Below are positions 24,232 through 49,042 of a stretch of 49,042 nucleotides of DNA, in pieces. The stretch is from positions 1 through 49,042 of the IMG/VR virus record IMGVR_UViG_3300027896_000064; one strand, given 5' to 3'. The notes below the pieces were generated by a model. The model saw only the letters and a list, made by a program, of their open reading frames with translations. It was not told where the DNA came from and ran no database searches. The position numbers and the translations under genes are program-made. The number at the start of each line of letters is the position of its first letter. Position 1 is the first letter of the stretch. The DNA comes from a virus.

Positions 24232-26157
24232 ATGAATTACAAAGGATTTTCTTTAGACGAACCACAAGATACAGATTACGGCATTCCGTTTTTTAATACT
24301 CTACCACAATTTGTAAGAGAGTTAACTGCTTATAGATTGACCCGTGGAGAGTTTGGAAGACGCGAAAGGATTAAGTTTAAAATAAAACTTGAGGAAACTA
24401 CGCTTAAAAATCCTGCACAACACATGATTAATTGTTTCCAATTAATTTATGGGGATGATGTGTTGTTAAAATCTCAAGGAATACCAAACAATTATGCTTT
24501 AGACATCATTGATTTGTTCTGTAATGAGAACGATTGGGGCATTGCGGGGTGCGCAAGTAGTGGAAAAACCTTTTCAGTTGCTGCGTGTATCGTAATTGAT
24601 TGGCTATGTGCTCCAGATTGCACCTCAACGTATGTTGCATCAACGTCTTTGGATGCCTCTGAAGACCGTTTGTGGGGCAAAGTTTGTACCCTTTATCGGA
24701 TTGCAATGAAGAATTTAGCGTCTAAATATGGCAAAGATTCAGCCATTGGAAACCTTGTTGAGTACCGTAGGATGATTGTTTTTGAAACAATTGATACCAA
24801 AGATACGGAAAGAGACTATACAAATGCAATTAAAGCATTGGCATTTCCCCGTGGAGGTGAAGGAAAGCGTTCTGTTGAGAACACAAGAGGAAGAAAGAAT
24901 GCAAGAATGCGATTATTTTTGGATGAGTTGGCTGAAATGGATCTTTATGCCCTTGATACCCGTGTAAACTTAGGAGCAAATCCAGATTTTATCTTTGGAG
25001 GCATGGCAAATCCTTCATCAACAACAAATAATCCCCATACTGAACTATGCCAACCATCAGATCCTTTAGAATGGGATGCTGTTACCCGTTATACAAAGAA
25101 ATGGGAAACAAGAACTGGCGTTGCTTTGCACTTATCGGGAGAAGATAGTCCAAATTTTCAGTTACCTGACGCAGAGGTTCCTCCATTTGATAGGTTTTTA
25201 ACAATTGCAGGTGAAGCAGCAACACTAAAACGATGCTATGGCAATAAAAATGCCCTTGAATATTGGAGAAACGTATATGGATGGTGGCCTGATAGTTCTG
25301 TTGAGCTTACTATTTTCTCAAAACAGTTCATTCAAGCCTGTGAATTGAACTTTGAACCAGTTTGGAGTAGCAGAACACGGGTAGTTTGCGGATTTGACCC
25401 TGCATTTACTGCTGGAGGAGATAGATGTGCTGCTACATTTTGCCGATTTGGGCCAAATGATAGCGGTAGAAACCTTGGATTCTATTTAGGAACCCGTGAA
25501 TATACCTCTTCTGTTGGAGAAGTGTTTGAAGAGTCGATTGCCATTCAATTAATTAAAGATTGTATTGAATTTGGCGTTCACCCAAGGGATTTCGGGTTGG
25601 ATATTTCGGGTGATGGTGGAAAAATGATGAGAGCAATCATCATTGAATGGAGTAAATTCCATCCAGAAGCCATGTTTGTGTTCCCAATTTCTTCAATGGG
25701 AATGCCTACAGAGAGAAAAATCTCCAATTTGGATAAAAGAACGTGCAAAGAAGCTTATGATCGGTTGGTTACGGAATACTGGTTTGCCGTTCATACAGCA
25801 TTTTCTACCCGTTCATTGGTTGGAATCAACGTAGATGACCATTCGCAGGTCATAAATGAGCTTTGCAGTCGCCTTTATTACCACAAGGGGAGAAAGGTCG
25901 CAGTTGAGAAAAAACTTGATATGAAGCATCGTCTGAAGAAATCTCCCGATTTGGCAGATTCTTTAGTTTATGCCGTTCAAATGCTTCGTCGTGCTGGACT
26001 AGAGTTCAATTTTGAAGAAGAGACTGAATCTCTGGATATCCAAGAAATTAAAGATTGGGAGCACCGATTGATCCACAGCAAGCACAATGCTGAAGAACAA
26101 GCGGCTGAAGATGATTGGGGATACGGTGGACACGGAACAGACGAAGATGGATTTTGA
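24232..26157 (+). CDS. terL: Terminase large subunit
   Basis: 641 aa. ATPase: Walker A GCASSGKT at residues 106-113, Walker B RLFLDE at 227-232 with D231/E232, and a coupling motif region near MANPSSTTNNP (258-268). RNase H-like nuclease: D389 in VCGFDPAFTAGGDRCA, D457 in GLDISGDGGK, and a C-terminal Asp pair D573/D576 in SPDLADSLVYA. This is the packaging motor and headful or site nuclease. It stands alone: the small subunit lies about 5.7 kb away on the other strand, whereas the two are usually adjacent. The ATG at 24232 follows the candidate promoter and lacks an SD. Confidence 0.93.
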   Translation: MNYKGFSLDEPQDTDYGIPFFNTLPQFVRELTAYRLTRGEFGRRERIKFKIKLEETTLKNPAQHMINCFQLIYGDDVLLKSQGIPNNYALDIIDLFCNENDWGIAGCASSGKTFSVAACIVIDWLCAPDCTSTYVASTSLDASEDRLWGKVCTLYRIAMKNLASKYGKDSAIGNLVEYRRMIVFETIDTKDTERDYTNAIKALAFPRGGEGKRSVENTRGRKNARMRLFLDELAEMDLYALDTRVNLGANPDFIFGGMANPSSTTNNPHTELCQPSDPLEWDAVTRYTKKWETRTGVALHLSGEDSPNFQLPDAEVPPFDRFLTIAGEAATLKRCYGNKNALEYWRNVYGWWPDSSVELTIFSKQFIQACELNFEPVWSSRTRVVCGFDPAFTAGGDRCAATFCRFGPNDSGRNLGFYLGTREYTSSVGEVFEESIAIQLIKDCIEFGVHPRDFGLDISGDGGKMMRAIIIEWSKFHPEAMFVFPISSMGMPTERKISNLDKRTCKEAYDRLVTEYWFAVHTAFSTRSLVGINVDDHSQVINELCSRLYYHKGRKVAVEKKLDMKHRLKKSPDLADSLVYAVQMLRRAGLEFNFEEETESLDIQEIKDWEHRLIHSKHNAEEQAAEDDWGYGGHGTDEDGF

Positions 26158-26317: not shown

Positions 26318-26418
26318 GGGTAGCGATTTTTCACCAGCAAATCTTTTCTGGGGGGTAGGGGGGTTTGTTGGACTTTTTAGCCACGGGTGTATTTCTTTTT
26401 TTTAACAGTAAGTTAGAA

Positions 26419-26458: not shown

Positions 26459-27439
26459 ATGGCAAAGTTTTCACCACAGGATTATAAAAATAGTTCATCT
26501 ATCCCATCTGTTCTTGTGGGGTCTCCTAAAATGGATACTTCCATATCATCTATACTCAAAGGTTCTTCTAACGGTATTGCACCTAACCATACCACAGGGG
26601 AACTCTACAAAAGGAAACCACAATTCGTAATGTGTCCACCCAAGTTTCTGTCTACTCGCATTGCAAACAATGTGTTTATGAAACAGGAGAAGGTGGATAC
26701 GGAAAGAGCCATGCGTCAGTATGCCAGAATCAAAAGAATGATGACGGCACTTGATGTTCAAGTTCTTGAAGTTCCTCCCCAAAAAGATTGCCAAGATCAA
26801 CACTACACCGCAAACCTTGCGATAGCTTTAAACCCATTCATTGTGCTTGCAAAAATGAGTGCTGAAGGAAGGACTGAAGAAGAAGCTCCGGGTCGTAGGT
26901 TTTTTGAGGGTCGCGGCTATACTGTGATTCAGCCCCCACACGCATTTGAGGGAGAAGCCGACCTCAAGAAATGGAAAGATGGGGTGTACTTTGGTGGACA
27001 TGGTAAATTTTCGGATTGGAAAGCTCACGAATGGATTTCCAAAAAAACTGGCATTGAGATCATTCCTATTCGGGAAACCAGTGATTCTCTTTACCATCTT
27101 GATTGTTCTTTGTTTGTTCTGGATAAAGAAAACTTTATGGTATGCCGTGGAGGAATGGATAAAGAATCTTTCCGAAGGCTTGAGAAGGTTGCCAACATTA
27201 TTGACGTGCCACAGGATGTCATGTCTACGGGAGCAACCAACATGGTCAAAATCCCCGGCAATAAAAAAATTGTTCTCTCTGGAATGTTTTTCCCCGAAGA
27301 AAAGAAATACCAAAAGAGCATGGAATGGATGCTCACTACAATGGACAAGTTCAATTACTCCGTTATTTTCTGTGACATTGACGAAGCTGATAAATCTGGT
27401 GCAGACATCAGTTGTACAGTGATGCATCTGGACTTTTAA
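26459..27439 (+). CDS. DDAH/amidinotransferase-like pentein enzyme
   Basis: 326 aa, full length for the dimethylarginine dimethylaminohydrolase/amidinotransferase branch of the pentein fold. The first substrate-side acidic motif is FEGEAD at residues 163-168 (family FEGxxD), the catalytic His is H213 in LYHLDCSLFVL, and the catalytic Cys is C319 in SGADISCTVMHLDF. The His-to-Cys spacing of 106 residues and the C-terminal location of the Cys are as in DDAH and arginine deiminases. Supporting blocks are HYTANLAIAL (115-124), GVYFGGHGKFSD (175-186) and GATNMVKIPGNKKIVL (258-273). These enzymes hydrolyse or transfer groups at guanidinium carbon. Substrate here is unknown: methylated arginine, arginine or an amidino-acceptor are options. 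It follows terminase with its own promoter candidate. A catalytic pentein in a phage genome is unusual. Confidence 0.8.
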   Translation: MAKFSPQDYKNSSSIPSVLVGSPKMDTSISSILKGSSNGIAPNHTTGELYKRKPQFVMCPPKFLSTRIANNVFMKQEKVDTERAMRQYARIKRMMTALDVQVLEVPPQKDCQDQHYTANLAIALNPFIVLAKMSAEGRTEEEAPGRRFFEGRGYTVIQPPHAFEGEADLKKWKDGVYFGGHGKFSDWKAHEWISKKTGIEIIPIRETSDSLYHLDCSLFVLDKENFMVCRGGMDKESFRRLEKVANIIDVPQDVMSTGATNMVKIPGNKKIVLSGMFFPEEKKYQKSMEWMLTTMDKFNYSVIFCDIDEADKSGADISCTVMHLDF

Positions 27440-27611: not shown

Positions 27612-27718
27612 ACAAGACAACCACAACCACGAATGCAAAACCAAGTGCTTCGCTTCGTCCTGCTAGAATCGGATATGGAGTTCAAAAAAAGACCAAACGA
27701 AAGTCTAAAAAAAAGTAA
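27608..27718 (+). CDS. Lys-rich 36-aa peptide
   Basis: MNKTTTTTNAKPSASLRPAR at the start and KKTKRKSKKK at the end, so the tail is strongly cationic. Starts on an ATGA overlap and ends one base before the next ATG, which argues it is translated. A nucleic-acid-binding peptide is possible. Function unknown. Confidence 0.4.
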   Translation: MNKTTTTTNAKPSASLRPARIGYGVQKKTKRKSKKK

Positions 27719-27719
27719 C

Positions 27720-28037
27720 ATGAATCCCCAAGAAGATGCTTTTGAAATTTGGCAGGATGCATCAACTTCTGGAATTGCAAAATATCACAAGGGAAGCAAA
27801 GAGCATAAAACTCAATTTTGGACTGCTGGTGCTGGATGGTATGCTCAAAACCTTAAAGACGAGCAATTGGATTTGATCAGTTATCTTTATCACCTTTCCG
27901 AAAGGATCAACTCCATTCAACTTCTTGCTCAAATGATGGAAGAAGATAATGTTTCTTTGCGTGATGCGGCAACGATACTTAAAGAGTTATGTTCCAACAA
28001 CGCACCAAAGAAAATCTCCTATCAATCAAATGACTAA
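27720..28037 (+). CDS. Hypothetical helical protein (weakly MazG-like)
   Basis: 105 aa from the ATG at 27720; an upstream in-frame ATG would overlap two other genes. The central helix QNLKDEQLDLISYLYHLSER resembles the E-x-x-D-x-x-x-Y helix of all-alpha nucleotide pyrophosphohydrolases, but the other acidic motif is not evident. It overlaps the phosphoesterase start by 8 bases. Pyrophosphohydrolase activity is a weak inference. Confidence 0.55.
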   Translation: MNPQEDAFEIWQDASTSGIAKYHKGSKEHKTQFWTAGAGWYAQNLKDEQLDLISYLYHLSERINSIQLLAQMMEEDNVSLRDAATILKELCSNNAPKKISYQSND

Positions 28038-28833
28038 AAGAAAAATTGTCGGTGCTGTAGTTGTAAGTGATCTTCACTGTGGTTCCGAAGTTGGGTTGTG
28101 GCCTGATGGATTTGAAACCAAAAGCGGAAACAAAATCGGATTGGGAAACAATCTCCATCAGCAATGGTTGTGGCAATGCTGGCAGGATGGTGTATTAAAA
28201 GGCATCAAGCATTTTGGTAAAGATGGATTTGCCTTGCTGCTTAATGGTGATCTTCTTGAGGGAAGGCATCATGGAACAGATCAGATTGTTGCTGCTGATT
28301 GTCTTGATCATTCAAATGCTGCCATTAAATGCCTTGAGCCTTTGGTTAATGCAGCTTCAGTTATTTATTTGACTGCTGGAACGGAATGCCATGTAAAAAA
28401 TTGGGAAGAATATATCTGCAAAAAAATTGGTGGCAAATGGTGTGGCGACAAAGGATTGATTGAAATCAATGGATGCCTGATTGATATGGCTCATCATATG
28501 CCAACGAGTTCTAGGGCATACCTTGAGGCAGGAGCAATGTCTATTACGATGGGCAATGCTCGCCAGAATTACTCCCGTGTTGGTCATAGGGTTCCCAAAA
28601 TATATTTACGAGGACACAGACACACGGGAGGAATCTTTAACGATGGATCAGGAATCTTTATGGTTACTCCCGCTTGGCAATTGTTGACGCGATATGCCCA
28701 TAAAGTAGTTGGAGATTCTATTTGCCGTCCCAGTATTGGCATCCTAGATTGGCGCGGATGTGATGAAGGAGAATTACCAGCAACCAAAATTATTCAGTAT
28801 GAACCAAAAGAAACTCGACCCATCAGAAGCTGA
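28030..28833 (+). CDS. Calcineurin-like metallophosphoesterase
   Basis: 267 aa from the ATG at 28030. Metallophosphoesterase motifs in order: SDLH (13-16), NGDLLEG (72-78), GTECHV (117-122, at the GNH(D/E) position), a His pair DMAHHMP (153-158), and RGHRHTGG (194-201). These provide two-metal coordination for phosphomonoester or phosphodiester hydrolysis. The GNHE motif is altered to GTECH, which might change the substrate. Candidate targets are nucleic acids, cyclic nucleotides or phosphoproteins. It overlaps genes on both sides and belongs to the early plus-strand operon downstream of the pentein gene. Confidence 0.82.
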   Translation: MTKRKIVGAVVVSDLHCGSEVGLWPDGFETKSGNKIGLGNNLHQQWLWQCWQDGVLKGIKHFGKDGFALLLNGDLLEGRHHGTDQIVAADCLDHSNAAIKCLEPLVNAASVIYLTAGTECHVKNWEEYICKKIGGKWCGDKGLIEINGCLIDMAHHMPTSSRAYLEAGAMSITMGNARQNYSRVGHRVPKIYLRGHRHTGGIFNDGSGIFMVTPAWQLLTRYAHKVVGDSICRPSIGILDWRGCDEGELPATKIIQYEPKETRPIRS

Positions 28834-30701: not shown

Positions 30702-30775
30702 TACCCTTTGGTGTAACGGTAGCACAGGGGACTTTGACTCCCCTAGTCATGGTTCAAATCCATGAGGGGTAGCCA
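30702..30775 (+). tRNA. tRNA-Gln (UUG)
   Basis: Acceptor TACCCTT pairs with AGGGGTA (one G-T), followed by discriminator G and an encoded CCA. Anticodon stem GGGGA/TCCCC encloses CTTTGAC with anticodon TTG. T stem CATGG/CCATG encloses TTCAAAT. Complete 74-nt cloverleaf. Confidence 0.9.
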
Positions 30776-30776
30776 T

Positions 30777-30851
30777 TCCAACATAGCTCAACGGTAGAGC
30801 AGCGCACTGTTAATGCGCGGGTTGTAGGTTCAAATCCTACTGTTGGAGCCA
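30777..30851 (+). tRNA. tRNA-Asn (GUU)
   Basis: Acceptor TCCAACA/TGTTGGA, discriminator G, encoded CCA. Anticodon stem GCGCA/TGCGC, loop CTGTTAA with anticodon GTT. T stem GTAGG/CCTAC. One base separates it from tRNA-Gln, so they are probably one transcript. Confidence 0.92.
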
Positions 30852-31165: not shown

Positions 31166-31241
31166 TGGCACGGCCCCTAGGAATCGAACCTAGCCAGTCG
31201 GCCTTGGAGACCAACTCGCCTACCCTGGAACATTGGGCCGT
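31166..31241 (-). tRNA. tRNA-Trp (CCA), with an atypical D-arm
   Basis: Read on the minus strand: acceptor ACGGCCC/GGGCCGT, discriminator G, CCA encoded. Anticodon stem TTGGT/GCCGA with loop CTCCAAG, anticodon CCA. T stem CTAGG/CCTAG with loop TTCGATT. Length 76 nt. The D region does not form a normal 4-bp stem (only about 3 bp, TTC/GAG, with a GGGTAGG-containing loop), and position 8 is A, not T. It may be functional but unusual, or decayed. Confidence 0.72.
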
Positions 31242-37818: not shown

Positions 37819-38241
37819 ATGAATGAGCTACATTTATTTGCAGGAGCAGGAGGAGGGATCTTGGGAGGAATGCTCCTCGGACATACCCCAGTTTGTGCTG
37901 TGGAAATTGAACCATATTGTCGCAGAGTTTTACTCCAACGCCAACGAGATGGAATCTTGCCCAAGTTCCCAATCTGGATACTCGCTGATGCGGCCAACAG
38001 CTTCGGATGGTTTGCGCCACAAGTTCAAGCTCTCAAGTTTAGTCAGAAAGGGTCATCAAGACGGCAATTTAACAGAGCAATTAGCGCGTGTTCATCAGAA
38101 GAAGCTCACGCCGAACGCCTCGGAAATTCTGATGCGCTTTCCAGAGACGTGGACAGACTTAAGGCCATTGGAAATGGACAAGTTCCAATTGTGGCAGCAA
38201 CATCATTCAGAATACTTTCAGAATCAGTAGTCAGTAAATAA
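37819..38241 (+). pseudogene. Truncated, frame-disrupted cytosine-C5 DNA methyltransferase
   Basis: In frame from 37819: MNELHLFAGAGGGILGGMLL is motif I with the SAM-binding FAGAGG, and CAVEIEPYCRRVL is motif II. About residue 52 the similarity stops: catalytic motif IV (PCQ) and motifs VI and VIII are missing. In the second frame (37823-38230, 135 aa) the DNA then reads LMRPTASDGLRHKF and LTPNASEILMRFPETWTDL, a typical C-terminal region of phage C5 methyltransferases. The first frame at the same place reads DRLKAIGNGQVPIVAATSFR, which is a motif X. The gene is thus a deletion/frameshift relic without catalytic core, though either frame might still yield a peptide. Confidence 0.72.
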
Positions 38242-42649: not shown

Positions 42650-44167
42650 CTATTTCTTAAAATTAGGACGCTTAAACTTTCCCTCATAGTTTAAGCTTTC
42701 TAGTTCTAACAAAGGAATATTTCTTTCTTTAAGCCACTCTCTTGCTAATCGGCAATTGCGTAAATTAGATGCATCTCTATTTAATCCATGCCCCTCCCAT
42801 CCAGATGGATGCCATTCATGGTAAATGATATTCTCAATCTCTCTTCCATTAGCAATCTTTATTAGTTCTCGCATGATCCTGTCCCATGAATGCCTCCCAA
42901 GAACCATGTCTGGGAAAAGATAATGATTACTTCTCCACCATCCAACTCTCATTACAAACAAATCACATCCCGCATATTTTGTTCCTGCACTAATGCGATC
43001 ATAAGGGATTGGATTGTCTATTCTTTTAAAATCATGCCTGTAAGCATATGCAGGAAGGATTCCTTCAAATCTTTGTAACACATTTGAAGCAATACAAGTG
43101 TCCGTATTGGTAAGAACTAAAACATCTGAATCATTTCTTCCGACACAAGCCAATCGAAGCATATCCTTAATCATTGGGATTCTTCGCCTTTCATCTGGTA
43201 TTACTTCGAGGGAGCTTCGGACAAAACAGTTGTCATCCAAACCAAGATCAACCCATCCAATCCCATCCCAAGATTTTTCAGCTACATTGTTGCGGCGTTT
43301 TTCATCTCCTACTGACCAAGGAGTCCGTTGATATACATGAACAACATTTGGGATGGTTGATCTTGATTTTGGATTCCTAATCAAGTCAAGGATTCGGGTC
43401 ACATCTCTTGGAAAGTTCCTATATCGCGTGTACGAGGCGTAGGATGGTCTCCATGCTGTCCCGTGCCACAATGAGGGTGAATCTGTTACTATCGCATGAA
43501 CGGGAGTTTTAGAGGCATATGAGAGGTGTAATGGCCCACTGTCCGTTAAGATCATTGCATGGGTGTTTGGATGATCCATGATGCCAAGCAAGTCATAGAA
43601 CTTTTCAGCCTTTATCTTACTTAAATCAACAATGTGAAATTCTGGCAAAGAATGATTAAGTATCTCCCAGAGCAATTCTGAATATTGGAACGGTGATGAA
43701 TTTCCTCCTGTAGATACAACTATCCACGGCTTATCTTTAGGAATCCCTTTGGTCAGTTTCTTTTCCCTTTTACTATCTCTTTGATCAAAGACTAGAGGAA
43801 GTTGTTTGGGCCAAAGATCCAACTTCCCCGCAAGCCTCCAAGCATCCATTTGGAAACTATCGCATACAATTTTTGGCCCAACATGATTTCCATATACTTG
43901 ACTTACTACAATTTCGGAAACACCAACAACTTGAGTTGTTGTTACATCTTCTGACAAATCTTTTGCAAACTTTAATGCTCCTACAATGTCTTCAAATGGC
44001 CCATCAAAAACAATTTTCTCAACATAAGAAACACCATCAAGGATGTCTTGGAAGTCTTTAGAAATAATCAAGCTTGGCTTCTTTCCTGTCTCATCATACT
44101 CATTTTTGAGAACAGGAAGAAACGAACAGACATCTCCATACCTACCAAGATTAAGGAAGATACTCAT
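42650..44167 (-). CDS. Two-domain glycosyltransferase (GT9-like plus C-terminal GT-A-like)
   Basis: 505 aa. Residues about 1-265 follow a GT-B heptosyltransferase plan: LNLGRYGDV at 5-13 for the N-terminal Rossmann start, ending in LTDSGPLHLSYASKTPVHAI (207-226), the family's DSGPxHLA-type donor-site motif, with the Ala/Gly positions substituted. Residues about 273-440 (NVVHVYQRTPWSVGDEKRRN to SWDRIMRELI) form a second module with VLVLTNTDTC (349-358), a possible D-x-D variant, and AGCDLFVMRVGWW. It should transfer sugars to LPS-like, protein or other phage/host acceptors. It lies beside the large virion gene, not with small early genes. Acceptor and donor are unknown. Confidence 0.68.
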   Translation of the reverse strand: MSIFLNLGRYGDVCSFLPVLKNEYDETGKKPSLIISKDFQDILDGVSYVEKIVFDGPFEDIVGALKFAKDLSEDVTTTQVVGVSEIVVSQVYGNHVGPKIVCDSFQMDAWRLAGKLDLWPKQLPLVFDQRDSKREKKLTKGIPKDKPWIVVSTGGNSSPFQYSELLWEILNHSLPEFHIVDLSKIKAEKFYDLLGIMDHPNTHAMILTDSGPLHLSYASKTPVHAIVTDSPSLWHGTAWRPSYASYTRYRNFPRDVTRILDLIRNPKSRSTIPNVVHVYQRTPWSVGDEKRRNNVAEKSWDGIGWVDLGLDDNCFVRSSLEVIPDERRRIPMIKDMLRLACVGRNDSDVLVLTNTDTCIASNVLQRFEGILPAYAYRHDFKRIDNPIPYDRISAGTKYAGCDLFVMRVGWWRSNHYLFPDMVLGRHSWDRIMRELIKIANGREIENIIYHEWHPSGWEGHGLNRDASNLRNCRLAREWLKERNIPLLELESLNYEGKFKRPNFKK

Positions 44168-44530: not shown

Positions 44531-47500
44531 TTAAAAAGAACCAAATGATTCATTCTTGTTAGATAATGGCAAAGAGAACGATCCTAAATCTGAACTACTT
44601 TTTGCGCTTCTAGCTTTTGATTGCATGGACTTTTTGTATTCCTCCAAATCTTGAGGAGTCTCAATCCTATCTCCACGCAATACGGCAGTTCCTGCTTTAA
44701 TAACTGCTGGCAACCCTTCTTTTTGAGTAGATGCCTCTGATATAGGAATAGGAGAGAAGTTTTGAACAATATATTCACTCCACGTCAGTTTTCTTCGACC
44801 ACGATCTGGTTGATCATTAGACCAAGGAACAACATTACCAACATAATCTTTTCTATCAACGGCAACTGCAATGTCTCTTGCCAATGGGCTTAATCCACTT
44901 TTGATATATTTCATAAAATCTTGAACCATAATATCAGAACGCCTTCCTTTTGCTTTTTCAAAACGAGAAAGTTCGCCAAATGCATCATGTGATTCTTGAA
45001 ACAACAATCGTGCGATTCGTGTAATTGCTCCAACAGTCTGAAGTTGATAACCAAATCCCTTGTATGCAAGCCAATCATATTCTCTTGGATGCAAGAAATT
45101 GATTTTTTGATCACTTCCAGACATTTGTAGCAACAATTGATTAACACTTAATGCCGCTACTAAACCAGACATGAATTTTATTTTGTTAACCAACTCAAAA
45201 TTTGCTCCCATTCTTTCAGCCAAAGTAGTTCTTTGACCTGTAGCCATTTTTGTATATGTCCCCAACATTTTGATTGGATCAGCAATCATCCAATTTAACC
45301 TTGATTTAACAAGTTTTGCAGCAAACAACAATGCTTTAACAACAGGACTATTCACAATTGAACCACCTTTATTAAATCCAGTAGCATTATTGGTTTGTTC
45401 AGAAATAATCTTTGCCATTTCTGGAGTTTTTTGAGTAATGCTTAATTTATTCCATCTTTTTTCAAACATTTCTTGACGAAGATGATAAAGAGCATCAAAT
45501 CCTCTGCCTCCAGTTATTACATCTAATGCTCTTCCAAAAACATTTTGACTGTTTTCTCTAATTGGATTTTCAGAAGAATGAGAAAAAGGATCATTTTCTA
45601 ATCCTGCTTCATTAGCGACTCTCCAAGTTGGTCTGTTAATCAAATCAATATTATCTACATAATTTTTTATCCTGCCATTTTTACCATAAAACGAATACTT
45701 GAATCCTTGTAACCATGCTTTAAATGAAAGAATTGGATTTGTATATCTAACTGATGGTGCGTGAGTTCCCAAGAATGCAGTACCATGACCAAAAATTGCT
45801 AACTTAAATGCTCTTGCGGCGGCTTTACCATAAATCTTTTGAATGATATTTGCCTGTTCTCCAACTAACCACATTCTTGCATTATTCAATGCATCCCTTC
45901 TAGCTATTTGAGCAAGATACATTTTATCGGTAACATTTCTAACTCCCTTCTGTGAAGCAAATGCTTCTCTGATTTGTTTTGGAGTAAGACCAAAATCATC
46001 AGCCATGTCATTGATCATCTTATCAATGTCACGCTCACCCTTATCCAGATAGAATTTCTTTGCTGTTTCCCAAAGTGTTTTAGCTTGTTCTGGATTCAGC
46101 TTCTGACCAACTTCCTCGACTCTTGGTTGGAGTAAATTCTCTCGTTGTTTTCCAACCAAACGAGATTCCTTCAACTCATCTTGTTTCTTTTTATATTCTT
46201 CCTCAAGACGCTTGATCTCATCATTGGTAACTTTCTCTACATCTTTTGGAGTCGAAACTTTACCATTATTAATGTCATCAATTTTCTTTTGAGCTTGCTC
46301 AATGCGTTTGCGTAATGATTCGGCGGATTTCTCCGCTGGACTCATTTTTGAAACAGGCTTTGCCTTAATTTTTGCTTTTGCTTTGGTTTCAGATTTTACA
46401 GTCTTGATTGCCTTTTCACCACCAACTTCACCTTTGATTAACTCATGTGCTTTGTCCCAAGCATCTTTGAGATATGGCTTAATTTTATCACCAAACTTAT
46501 CAAGCAATAATTTAGAGGATTCAGCAAAATCAAGACCAAGCTCACCAATTTGACCACGGATAATTCTAGCAAGAGTAGCAACAATGGAAATATCTGGAGT
46601 TGTTCCCAATTGACCACTCAATTGTTTGCTTAATAGTTTTTCTGCTTCTTTAGCATCAGCTTTCCAACGATCAACAATCTTTCTGGCTTGCTCAAAAACT
46701 TCCTTTCCATATTTGGGAACCTTATCCAATTGATCTTGGAGATCTTTAATTTTGGCCTCGTAGTATTCTTTTAATGCACTTGCATCTTGATTTGTCTCTC
46801 TGGCTTGTTTGATTTCCTCAAGATCTTTCTTGGTTTGCTCAAGTTCTTTATTTAAACGCTCAATTTCTGCTTTTGCTTTCTTTCCAGCGGAATCAGAAAG
46901 ATCACCAACTTGATCACGGGCATCTTCAACAGATTCTGGAGTCTTTACTTCCACATCCGACATGGAATTATCCATTGCATCAACCCAATCATTGCTTGTG
47001 GTTTCTGCATCATTAATAGTTTTCTCAACCAGTTCGGCCTTTTTTTGCATCCCGTCAAGTTGAGATTTAGATGGTTCTTGACCTGTGTTTTTTATGAACT
47101 CTGCTGTCATATCAGCAACATTCGTTAGATCAGTTTCTCCTTGGAAAGATGCAAGTGCTTCAGATGCTTTTGTTCCAGCCTCACGAATTCCTTCGTAGTA
47201 TTCCTGCCTCTTTGCTACTGCTGATTTGTATTGTTCAGAATCCGCACCATACTTTTTAAGAGTATCATTTACTTGTTTAGCCAAAATCTGGTCATAAGCT
47301 TTTGCTGTAGCAATGCCATCTGGATCACCATTCTTTGCTCTTTCTAATGCTTCGTAAGGATCTGCTCCAGCATTTAGATTTGCTCGTCCTTTTTGTAAAA
47401 CTTGTTCACCAGAAAGCCTTGTTCCAGCAGGAACAACTGCTGTAAGAAGACCCCTTCTGACTTGATCGTTTTGATCTTTTTTACGAATGGAAATCATCTC

Positions 47501-49042
47501 TGGAGTTTCTTCTCCAGTTGTTGTGGGAGTAACAGCTTGTGGTGGTTCTGGCTTGGCTTTTCCAGATGCTTTTTCATAAGCATTACCAATCTCTTTAGAA
47601 GTAATTCCGGGGAATTTCTTTGCTACAGCATTTGCTATTTCACCTTCCGTTGCGGGTCTTCCAAGGTTTTTAGTTAAAGCATCATATGCTCTTTTTGCAT
47701 ATGCTTCTTGAGGAGAAGGTGGCCCATATTTATTTTTTGTGGATTGAGATTCTTGTGCTTCTGCTGGCTTTACTTCCGTACCTTCACCTTGTGCTGGTGC
47801 AGTTCCTTCTTTAGCTTTTCCTTCTGGCTTGGTTTCAGCGGAGACACCTTCGACAGGAGGTATCCCACTTGTTTCTGAGACTTTACTTTCGGGGCTGATT
47901 TCTTTTTCACTTGGTTCCTCGGTTAGTTGTTTTGGCTCTCTAATCATGGAGCCATCTTCTTGCTCCACAAATCCATTTCTTGAATACCAATCTTTTAATT
48001 GCTGATTCGTAAGACCTTCAGATGTAAATTTTTCGGTATCAAGAACAAGAGAAACTTCTTCTTGATCTGCTAATCTTATAATTAAATTTAGAGCATCTTT
48101 TCCAGCACCAACTCCTCTTTCAAATGCTCTAATGGAATGTATTCTTGCTATACCACCTAAATCTTCTACATCAATAGCGGCATTGCGATTTACAATTCTT
48201 TCTCTTGGATCAAGCTGGTTCTCTTCTGTTTCTTTTTCAATAGAATCAATAAGTCTTGATCCCGCTTCAGAATCACTTTTTCCAAATCCAGTTAATTTAA
48301 CAACTTTAGGTTGTTCTTCAGCTACAGGAGCTTCAGCGGGTTTTTCTTCTGACTTGTAAATTATTTCATTATTATTTACCTCATTTTGCATGAGATTAAT
48401 TGCGGAATCTAACCCATTTATACCATCTTCTCTTGCTCTTTTTAGGTCATGTAACTTATCTTCATCATCTTGATTTATCCAGTTACTTAAATCTAAACTC
48501 TTTGTATTATCTGGGTCTGTTTTAAGCCAGTTATTGAAATCATTTACAACATCTTCTGGTATTTTAACAATTGGAACAGAAATATTTGCTTGCTTGGCGG
48601 CGGCAAGGCGATGACTTCCTGTTATAGCTTCATCATCAACAACCAACAATGGCCTTCCTAACCATCCATTTGTTTTCATTGAGTTAGCCATTGAAACAAC
48701 TTCTCGTTCCCTTTTTTTATCAATAAGATGTGGCGGTATAATATTATTAGGATCTACATTTTCTATTGGTTGTGATGGTTCTTCACCTGTAGGTTCTACA
48801 GTAGGAGCGGCAAGAGCTTCAGCGGGTTTTTGTAAAGCATCAATCTGTTGCTGAGCAACAAGATCGGAAATCTTTGCGCGGTTTAATTCCTCTGGAGTTG
48901 CGGCAGGGATATTAATCGTAGGGCCGGTAACCTCACCGGGGGGCGGGAGAGCCTCATGCAGATCATCCGCTTTGGAGATAATTGCCGCTTCTTTTGAGTC
49001 AACGCCAGGGACGGTAGATGGAGCAACCTCTGGAGCGGGGCC
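44531..49042 (-). CDS. Giant polyvalent virion protein (5'-partial): ParB-like, GNAT-like, coiled coil and ejection-type C-terminus
   Basis: Open through the right edge (1503 residues visible; an ATG at 48691 is internal, because the frame remains open up to 49042). Order of visible parts: a Pro/Glu-rich leader; a ParB-like nuclease/CTPase fold at about 100-165 (KREREVVSMANSMKTNGWLG, LLVVDDEAITGSHRLAAAKQ); a GNAT-like acetyltransferase stretch at about 285-370 (HSIRAFERGVGAGKDALNLI, QLKDWYSRNGFVEQ); long Glu/Lys/Gln coiled coils up to about residue 970; and a C-terminal 450 residues of phage polyvalent-protein type (GLTPKQIREAF, GTAFLGTHAPSVRYTNPILS, KSRLNWMIADP). Such proteins are packaged and injected. 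I infer a multi-enzyme ejection protein. Confidence 0.72.
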   Translation of the reverse strand, partial: GPAPEVAPSTVPGVDSKEAAIISKADDLHEALPPPGEVTGPTINIPAATPEELNRAKISDLVAQQQIDALQKPAEALAAPTVEPTGEEPSQPIENVDPNNIIPPHLIDKKREREVVSMANSMKTNGWLGRPLLVVDDEAITGSHRLAAAKQANISVPIVKIPEDVVNDFNNWLKTDPDNTKSLDLSNWINQDDEDKLHDLKRAREDGINGLDSAINLMQNEVNNNEIIYKSEEKPAEAPVAEEQPKVVKLTGFGKSDSEAGSRLIDSIEKETEENQLDPRERIVNRNAAIDVEDLGGIARIHSIRAFERGVGAGKDALNLIIRLADQEEVSLVLDTEKFTSEGLTNQQLKDWYSRNGFVEQEDGSMIREPKQLTEEPSEKEISPESKVSETSGIPPVEGVSAETKPEGKAKEGTAPAQGEGTEVKPAEAQESQSTKNKYGPPSPQEAYAKRAYDALTKNLGRPATEGEIANAVAKKFPGITSKEIGNAYEKASGKAKPEPPQAVTPTTTGEETPEMISIRKKDQNDQVRRGLLTAVVPAGTRLSGEQVLQKGRANLNAGADPYEALERAKNGDPDGIATAKAYDQILAKQVNDTLKKYGADSEQYKSAVAKRQEYYEGIREAGTKASEALASFQGETDLTNVADMTAEFIKNTGQEPSKSQLDGMQKKAELVEKTINDAETTSNDWVDAMDNSMSDVEVKTPESVEDARDQVGDLSDSAGKKAKAEIERLNKELEQTKKDLEEIKQARETNQDASALKEYYEAKIKDLQDQLDKVPKYGKEVFEQARKIVDRWKADAKEAEKLLSKQLSGQLGTTPDISIVATLARIIRGQIGELGLDFAESSKLLLDKFGDKIKPYLKDAWDKAHELIKGEVGGEKAIKTVKSETKAKAKIKAKPVSKMSPAEKSAESLRKRIEQAQKKIDDINNGKVSTPKDVEKVTNDEIKRLEEEYKKKQDELKESRLVGKQRENLLQPRVEEVGQKLNPEQAKTLWETAKKFYLDKGERDIDKMINDMADDFGLTPKQIREAFASQKGVRNVTDKMYLAQIARRDALNNARMWLVGEQANIIQKIYGKAAARAFKLAIFGHGTAFLGTHAPSVRYTNPILSFKAWLQGFKYSFYGKNGRIKNYVDNIDLINRPTWRVANEAGLENDPFSHSSENPIRENSQNVFGRALDVITGGRGFDALYHLRQEMFEKRWNKLSITQKTPEMAKIISEQTNNATGFNKGGSIVNSPVVKALLFAAKLVKSRLNWMIADPIKMLGTYTKMATGQRTTLAERMGANFELVNKIKFMSGLVAALSVNQLLLQMSGSDQKINFLHPREYDWLAYKGFGYQLQTVGAITRIARLLFQESHDAFGELSRFEKAKGRRSDIMVQDFMKYIKSGLSPLARDIAVAVDRKDYVGNVVPWSNDQPDRGRRKLTWSEYIVQNFSPIPISEASTQKEGLPAVIKAGTAVLRGDRIETPQDLEEYKKSMQSKARSAKSSSDLGSFSLPLSNKNESFGSF

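Follow-up and report, generated by a model that had tools for sequence, protein, structure and literature searches.

The window analysed here is the whole of virus record IMGVR_UViG_3300027896_000064, a contig of 49,042 bases from a lake phage, and the gene of interest lies directly downstream of the terminase gene. The features at the locus are as follows, by position in the window:

24232-26157, + strand: terminase large subunit (phrog_2, E 1.8e-12), directly upstream of the pentein gene; synteny in the window's own phage group
26419-26447, + strand: candidate promoter, TTGACG-17-CATACT, retained in part ahead of the relatives' penteins, no excess over shuffles
26459-27439, + strand: pentein gene, 326 aa, ArgZ-type guanidino-modifying, signature [FW]EGEA[DE]xK (ORF, Pfam, PHROG, sequence and fold searches)
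26459-26608, + strand: N-terminal extension of about 50 residues ahead of the catalytic domain (residues 1-50 with pLDDT < 50; alignment)
26669-26671, + strand: Asn71 codon, AgrE Asn22 position
26813-26815, + strand: Asn119 codon, AgrE/ArgZ Asn71 position (the N71S ArgZ intermediate structure 6juz is among the fold matches)
26870-26872, + strand: Arg138 codon, AgrE Arg90 position, invariant (156/156)
26948-26950, + strand: Glu164 codon, catalytic acid position, AgrE Glu118
27008-27010, + strand: Phe184 codon, AgrE Arg139 position
27095-27103, + strand: His213-x-Asp215 codons, catalytic His and its partner, AgrE His168 and Asp170
27413-27415, + strand: Cys319 codon, catalytic nucleophile position (alignment of 156)
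28030-28833, + strand: conserved gene with metallophosphoesterase-like motifs (DLH, GD and GHRH by eye; synteny in 8 loci)

Downstream of the pentein gene follow an ORF of 134 residues and the gene with metallophosphoesterase-like motifs, whose start was chosen by hand as an ATG that overlaps the stop codon of ORF 27633-28037 and whose product gave no match in Pfam, PHROG or the PDB. To the left of the terminase gene, the big genes lie on the opposite strand. The gene order around the pentein is shared with relatives from other metagenomes. Searched against 50,697 isolate-phage records, the window terminase finds no match that would point to a host. Shine-Dalgarno-like leaders are rare, preceding 3 of 39 window genes, and similarly rare in one Bacteroides phage (2 of 23), which hints at a Bacteroidota host.

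The initial annotation had proposed that the gene has its own promoter right after terminase. Two sigma-70-like matches do lie upstream of the pentein, and a TTGAC...CATA block is partially conserved in relatives, but the region totals 7 matches versus 9.0 expected in shuffled sequence and hence shows no excess. The gap between terminase and pentein also holds two runs of six G (GGGGGGTAGGGGGG, 26349-26364, + strand; chance expectation in the window 0.06), and most loci of the window's clade show a similar pattern ahead of the pentein gene; it may represent a packaging site, a G-quadruplex or a regulatory element. Elsewhere in the window, tRNA-Gln and tRNA-Asn (30702-30851) were detected by both ARAGORN and Rfam, and a tRNA-Trp (31166-31241, - strand) by ARAGORN, not by Rfam at its threshold. 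A short ORF at 37819-38241 (+ strand) matches just part of DNA methyltransferase families; it could be a remnant, or belong to a gene that is divided over overlapping frames. Two large genes, at 42650-44167 (- strand, 505 aa) and 44531-48691 (- strand, 1386 aa), have no convincing family matches; the product of the former has a relative in phage L056 (33% over 297 aa), a phage that has little else but the pentein in common with the window.

Profile and fold searches both identify the 326-residue product as a pentein. It scores well above the gathering threshold of PF19420, a broad Pfam model (46.2 versus 23 bits, E 4.8e-12), and matches phrog_12759, a PHROG family of unknown function, at E 8.9e-20. 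Its AlphaFold2 model (mean pLDDT 83.6) displays the alpha/beta-propeller pentein fold, with 124 PDB matches at E <= 0.001 in Foldseek, including ArgZ, DDAH, NnhA, AGAT and ADI. The arginine dihydrolases ArgZ/AgrE match best (ArgZ 6jv0: E 7.6e-24, TM 0.90 over the target, rmsd 1.7); below them, DDAH structures start at ~1.7e-15, and NnhA, SxtG, HsvA and AGAT appear at ~1e-11. Sequence searches agree, with ArgZ/AgrE nearest and DDAH second. The initial label 'DDAH/amidinotransferase-like' was therefore imprecise: DDAH is indeed a close second, but amidinotransferases are clearly further away, and no amidinotransferase Pfam family occurs among the matches of the pentein down to E 0.1. PF04371 (agmatine deiminase) matches neither the pentein nor anything else in the window. 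With the more specific NCBIfam models, the arginine dihydrolase model NF052232 gives 75.7 bits against a cut-off of 450, and the DDAH equivalog models give 89.9, 33.6 and 29.7 bits against cut-offs of 300-450, none of which is reached. The ORF is a real pentein gene under strong purifying selection, as comparison with its closest phage relative yields a dN of 0.11, a dS of 1.5 and a dN/dS of ~0.07.

The motifs from which an active Cys-His-acid pentein had initially been predicted, FEGEAD (163-168), His213 and Cys319, are confirmed; together with the predicted fold and the low dN/dS, they support that prediction. The Asn-Asn-Glu-His-Asp-Cys site is complete and near-invariant in 156 aligned relatives. 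Glu164, His213 and Asp215 are identical in all 156 sequences and Cys319 in 154; Arg138, Gly165, Glu166, Ala167 and Lys170 are invariant as well, and Asn71 and Asn119 nearly so. AgrE Asn22, Asn71, Arg90, Glu118, His168 and Asp170 correspond to Asn71, Asn119, Arg138, Glu164, His213 and Asp215 of the window enzyme, and the nucleophilic Cys is retained at Cys319. Both members of the Asn pair of arginine dihydrolases are thus present. Of the substrate-side Arg pair of AgrE (Arg90 and Arg139), the first is retained as Arg138, and the second position is occupied by Phe184 throughout the window's clade. In ArgZ/AgrE, these two arginines presumably bind the alpha-carboxylate of the substrate, like Arg85 and Arg132, respectively, in Pseudomonas DDAH.

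The closest known system is the N-terminal domain of cyanobacterial ArgZ/AgrE, with which the window pentein shares its fold, the six-residue site and the Arg90 equivalent. It differs in its low identity (22-24%), the lack of an ornithine cyclodeaminase domain, a score far below the NCBIfam cut-off, Phe184 in place of Arg139, and an additional Glu166/Lys170 signature that is not found in AgrE. It also carries a predicted disordered N-terminal extension, which is partly kept in the window's clade; most other members, phage or cellular, have a short one or none. DDAH (Pseudomonas, human and M. tuberculosis models) has the pentein fold, a PF19420 match above the gathering score and the Cys-His-Glu site in common with the window pentein, at ~16-18% identity; where the window pentein has Asn, DDAH has an acidic residue beside the substrate.

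The window pentein carries all motifs of the phrog_12759 family ([FW]EGEA[DE]xK, NN, YHxDC and GAxxSC). The Fletchervirus 'amidinotransferase' and proteins of the Bacteroides DAC-group phages belong to the same family, with FEGEA, LYHxDC and GAxxSC in common and 27-31% identity over the full domain. Unlike the window, these phages encode a PSD-like decarboxylase and have Arg at position 184. Alignment-based scans found relatives in 209 viral stretches (best 80 kept) and 87 bacterial ones (80 kept); a single-sequence scan of bacterial genomes, in contrast, recovered none, and the single-sequence approach, repeated on viral contigs, added no loci to those already found. Among the 50,697 isolate-phage records, 47 carry the pentein, namely 40 from Campylobacter phages (Fletchervirus), six from Bacteroides phages (DAC/SJC) and a distant one from a Xanthomonas phage. 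The Campylobacter phage genes have long been annotated as 'amidinotransferase' and 'phosphatidylserine decarboxylase', and we found no description of the [FW]EGEA[DE]xK family as a system. We know of no enzyme of this EGEA-type family that has been assayed so far. The window gene hence belongs to a phage pentein family that is known but unstudied, and within it to a clade whose substrate site has changed.

A survey of co-clustering genes, as suggested initially, ties a PSD-like decarboxylase (PF02666) to the family outside the window's clade. The decarboxylase gene directly follows the pentein in 20 of 24 non-window phage loci, many of them in T4-like phages with the gp23 major capsid gene before the locus and PhoH after it. 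Viewed from the decarboxylase, the pentein lies immediately upstream on the same strand in 76 of 76 assessable viral loci, a ratio valid for the 80 best-scoring of 230 matches, in four of which the contig starts too close to assess. The PSD-like gene occurs in 45 isolate-phage records (39 Campylobacter, six Bacteroides), nearly the same ones that carry the pentein. In Campylobacter phage NCTC12673, the two genes are ~42 kb apart, so linkage alone does not explain their co-occurrence; as Fletchervirus genomes are closely related, the isolate records represent about two lineages. The initial statement that no standard phage module contains the enzyme therefore fails for the family, most of whose other phage members are paired with the decarboxylase, and holds for the window's clade, where no partner was found.

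The pairing extends to cellular genomes, in which the PSD-like gene is near the pentein in ~60 of the 80 loci kept from 87, mostly immediately adjacent and commonly with a MATE or ABC exporter. Compact operons of decarboxylase, pentein and exporter (MATE/ABC) are seen in Sulfurimonas, Xenorhabdus, Photorhabdus, Verrucomicrobia, actinobacteria and Bacteroides, the Bacteroides versions adding a penicillin-amidase-family gene; these operons are candidates for an undescribed small-molecule pathway. Of 15 bacterial genomes with the pentein-linked PSD, 13 also encode a canonical PSD with a higher score at another locus. The divergent linked copy is hence an additional one rather than the sole phospholipid enzyme, and a phospholipid role for it is disfavored. 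A PDB fold search with the model of the partner returned no match, not even PSD, and its identity as a PSD thus rests on sequence profiles. At four cyanobacterial loci, a PLP-dependent decarboxylase of the Orn/DAP/Arg type stands beside the pentein with no PSD, three of them also with an agmatine-deiminase-family gene, and the three of the corresponding genomes that were checked have no PSD anywhere. A putative agmatine-deiminase/PAD-family gene (PF04371, below NCBIfam cut-offs) is also third in the row after pentein and PSD in phages L070 and L083, and is found elsewhere in the genome of Bacteroides phage DAC19 (3339-4391 of locus L166), which also carries pentein and PSD. Replacement of PSD by a PLP decarboxylase, together with the recurrent agmatine-deiminase-family genes, favors a reading around arginine, ornithine and agmatine. 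Against a role in polyamine synthesis, 16 phage records yielded neither AdoMetDC nor an Orn/Arg decarboxylase.

The window's clade departs from this pattern. It comprises 50 sequences, is monophyletic with a support of 100/100 and sits on a long stem branch; among its members are L054 and L056, which bear little resemblance to the window in their other proteins. PSD (PF02666) is absent from all 18 records of the clade (the window and 17 others), seven of which are 49-55 kb, though records may be incomplete; the window itself has no match to PF02666, PF04371, PF02675 or PF02784. Position 184 is Phe in 50 of 50 sequences of the clade and Arg in 105 of 106 other members, including all 76 PSD-adjacent viral penteins. 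Of the 12 positions that are switched throughout the clade, it alone can be placed in the active site. The Arg-to-Phe change and the absence of PSD each represent one phylogenetic event, and calling the latter a loss assumes that the ancestor possessed PSD. On our reading, the enzymes of this clade would most likely act on a guanidino compound without that carboxylate. Retention of Arg138 means that a substrate carboxylate might still be bound.

We hypothesize that the PSD-paired pentein hydrolyses arginine, most likely to ornithine (arginine dihydrolases convert arginine to ornithine, CO2 and ammonia), and that the PSD-like pyruvoyl decarboxylase would convert the product intracellularly to an amine, probably ornithine to putrescine, with an exporter usually added in bacteria and not in phages. 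In the window's clade, the decarboxylase would have been lost and the Arg expected to hold the alpha-carboxylate swapped for Phe, so that the enzyme could take an already decarboxylated guanidino compound, for example host agmatine, which it would convert to putrescine or N-carbamoylputrescine late in infection. We put the probability of this reading, an ArgZ-type guanidino hydrolase whose family makes an amine from arginine together with PSD and whose window clade has shifted to a decarboxylated guanidine, at roughly 0.37. Of the roles considered in the initial annotation, a rewired arginine/polyamine supply is the one most compatible with the genomic surroundings of the family; this analysis gives no support to a modification of nucleobases or host proteins. 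For the bacterial exporters, a secreted natural product is at least as good an explanation as a polyamine.

As an amidinotransferase, the pentein would move the amidino group of arginine to an amine or amino acid, and the decarboxylase would trim the donor or the product, giving a guanidinylated small molecule that is exported by bacteria or kept inside by phages, for instance in a modified base or as a polycation. We regard this as unlikely, as AGAT, SxtG and HsvA rank far below ArgZ and DDAH in the fold search and are larger, and as Asn at the position of ADI Asp166 is presumably the dihydrolase state. The annotation of the Campylobacter phage members points toward transfer, as do the MATE/ABC exporters, which make the bacterial loci resemble small natural-product operons, and the CP220/CPt10 phages, with a putative glycine amidinotransferase in radical-SAM clusters (PMC2853527). 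The Campylobacter phages also prompted us to consider the amidine-to-amide step of 7-deazaguanine DNA modification; this candidate was rejected, since in the papers examined that contain both terms 'amidinotransferase' refers only to the archaeal tRNA enzyme.

Alternatively, the window enzyme could still be an arginine hydrolase (dihydrolase or deiminase) that serves nitrogen or ornithine supply or arginine depletion, with a host decarboxylase acting downstream and Phe184 merely tuning affinity. The proximity of ArgZ in both sequence and fold and the retained Arg138 are in line with this, but the complete fixation of Phe184 together with the missing partner, and the long stem branch of the clade, make it unlikely. 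Action on protein arginine or methylarginine (host or virion) or on free methylarginine is improbable. The pentein superfamily does include DDAH and peptidylarginine deiminases, and the highest NCBIfam score is that of a DDAH model (89.9 bits, cut-off 300); however, no DDAH cut-off is reached, the family context of decarboxylase and exporter is that of small molecules, and no link to a protein-modification system was seen. Least probable of all is a lipid pathway in which the pentein modifies an amine head group supplied by the PSD-like enzyme, the window enzyme acting alone. In its favor are the match of the partner to PSD profiles, the ABC and MATE partners that could transport lipids and the reading of phage psd as a phospholipid gene in an ocean AMG survey (PMC11360552). 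Against it, the linked PSD is divergent and extra to the canonical one in 13 of 15 genomes, and in four cyanobacteria a PLP amino-acid decarboxylase takes its place.

A survey of polyamine enzymes encoded by viruses (Li et al. 2023, PMC9992855) found arginase in none of the phages, and AIH and NCPAH in chloroviruses alone; its text mentions neither an arginine dihydrolase nor a PSD-type decarboxylase. The enzymes it covers likewise lead from arginine toward putrescine, through enzyme families that differ from that of the window. The PF04371 genes of L070, L083 and DAC19 stand beside its statement that AIH homologs are confined to chloroviruses. In the open-licence full texts examined that name both enzymes, the pentein/PSD pair is not described. 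It is possible, if tentative, that an ArgZ-type pentein and a PSD-type pyruvoyl decarboxylase form an undescribed two-enzyme route from arginine to an amine without arginase or classical ornithine decarboxylase, present in T4-like environmental phages, Fletchervirus, Bacteroides DAC-group phages and many bacteria. The window's clade would derive from this route and act alone on a decarboxylated guanidine, agmatine being one candidate.

Distant phage groups and many bacterial phyla share this gene pair, yet its phage copies carry the scattered labels 'amidinotransferase', 'phosphatidylserine decarboxylase' and 'hypothetical protein'. Recognizing them as one module would correct these labels and the lipid reading, name a candidate phage amine route and offer a simple assay. 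The window's clade is a natural experiment within this family: the partner is absent and one active-site Arg has become Phe, which directly predicts a substrate shift. The distribution of the pentein and PSD, together with the exception formed by this clade, suggests an unrecognized phage amine pathway with a branch that has acquired a new substrate.
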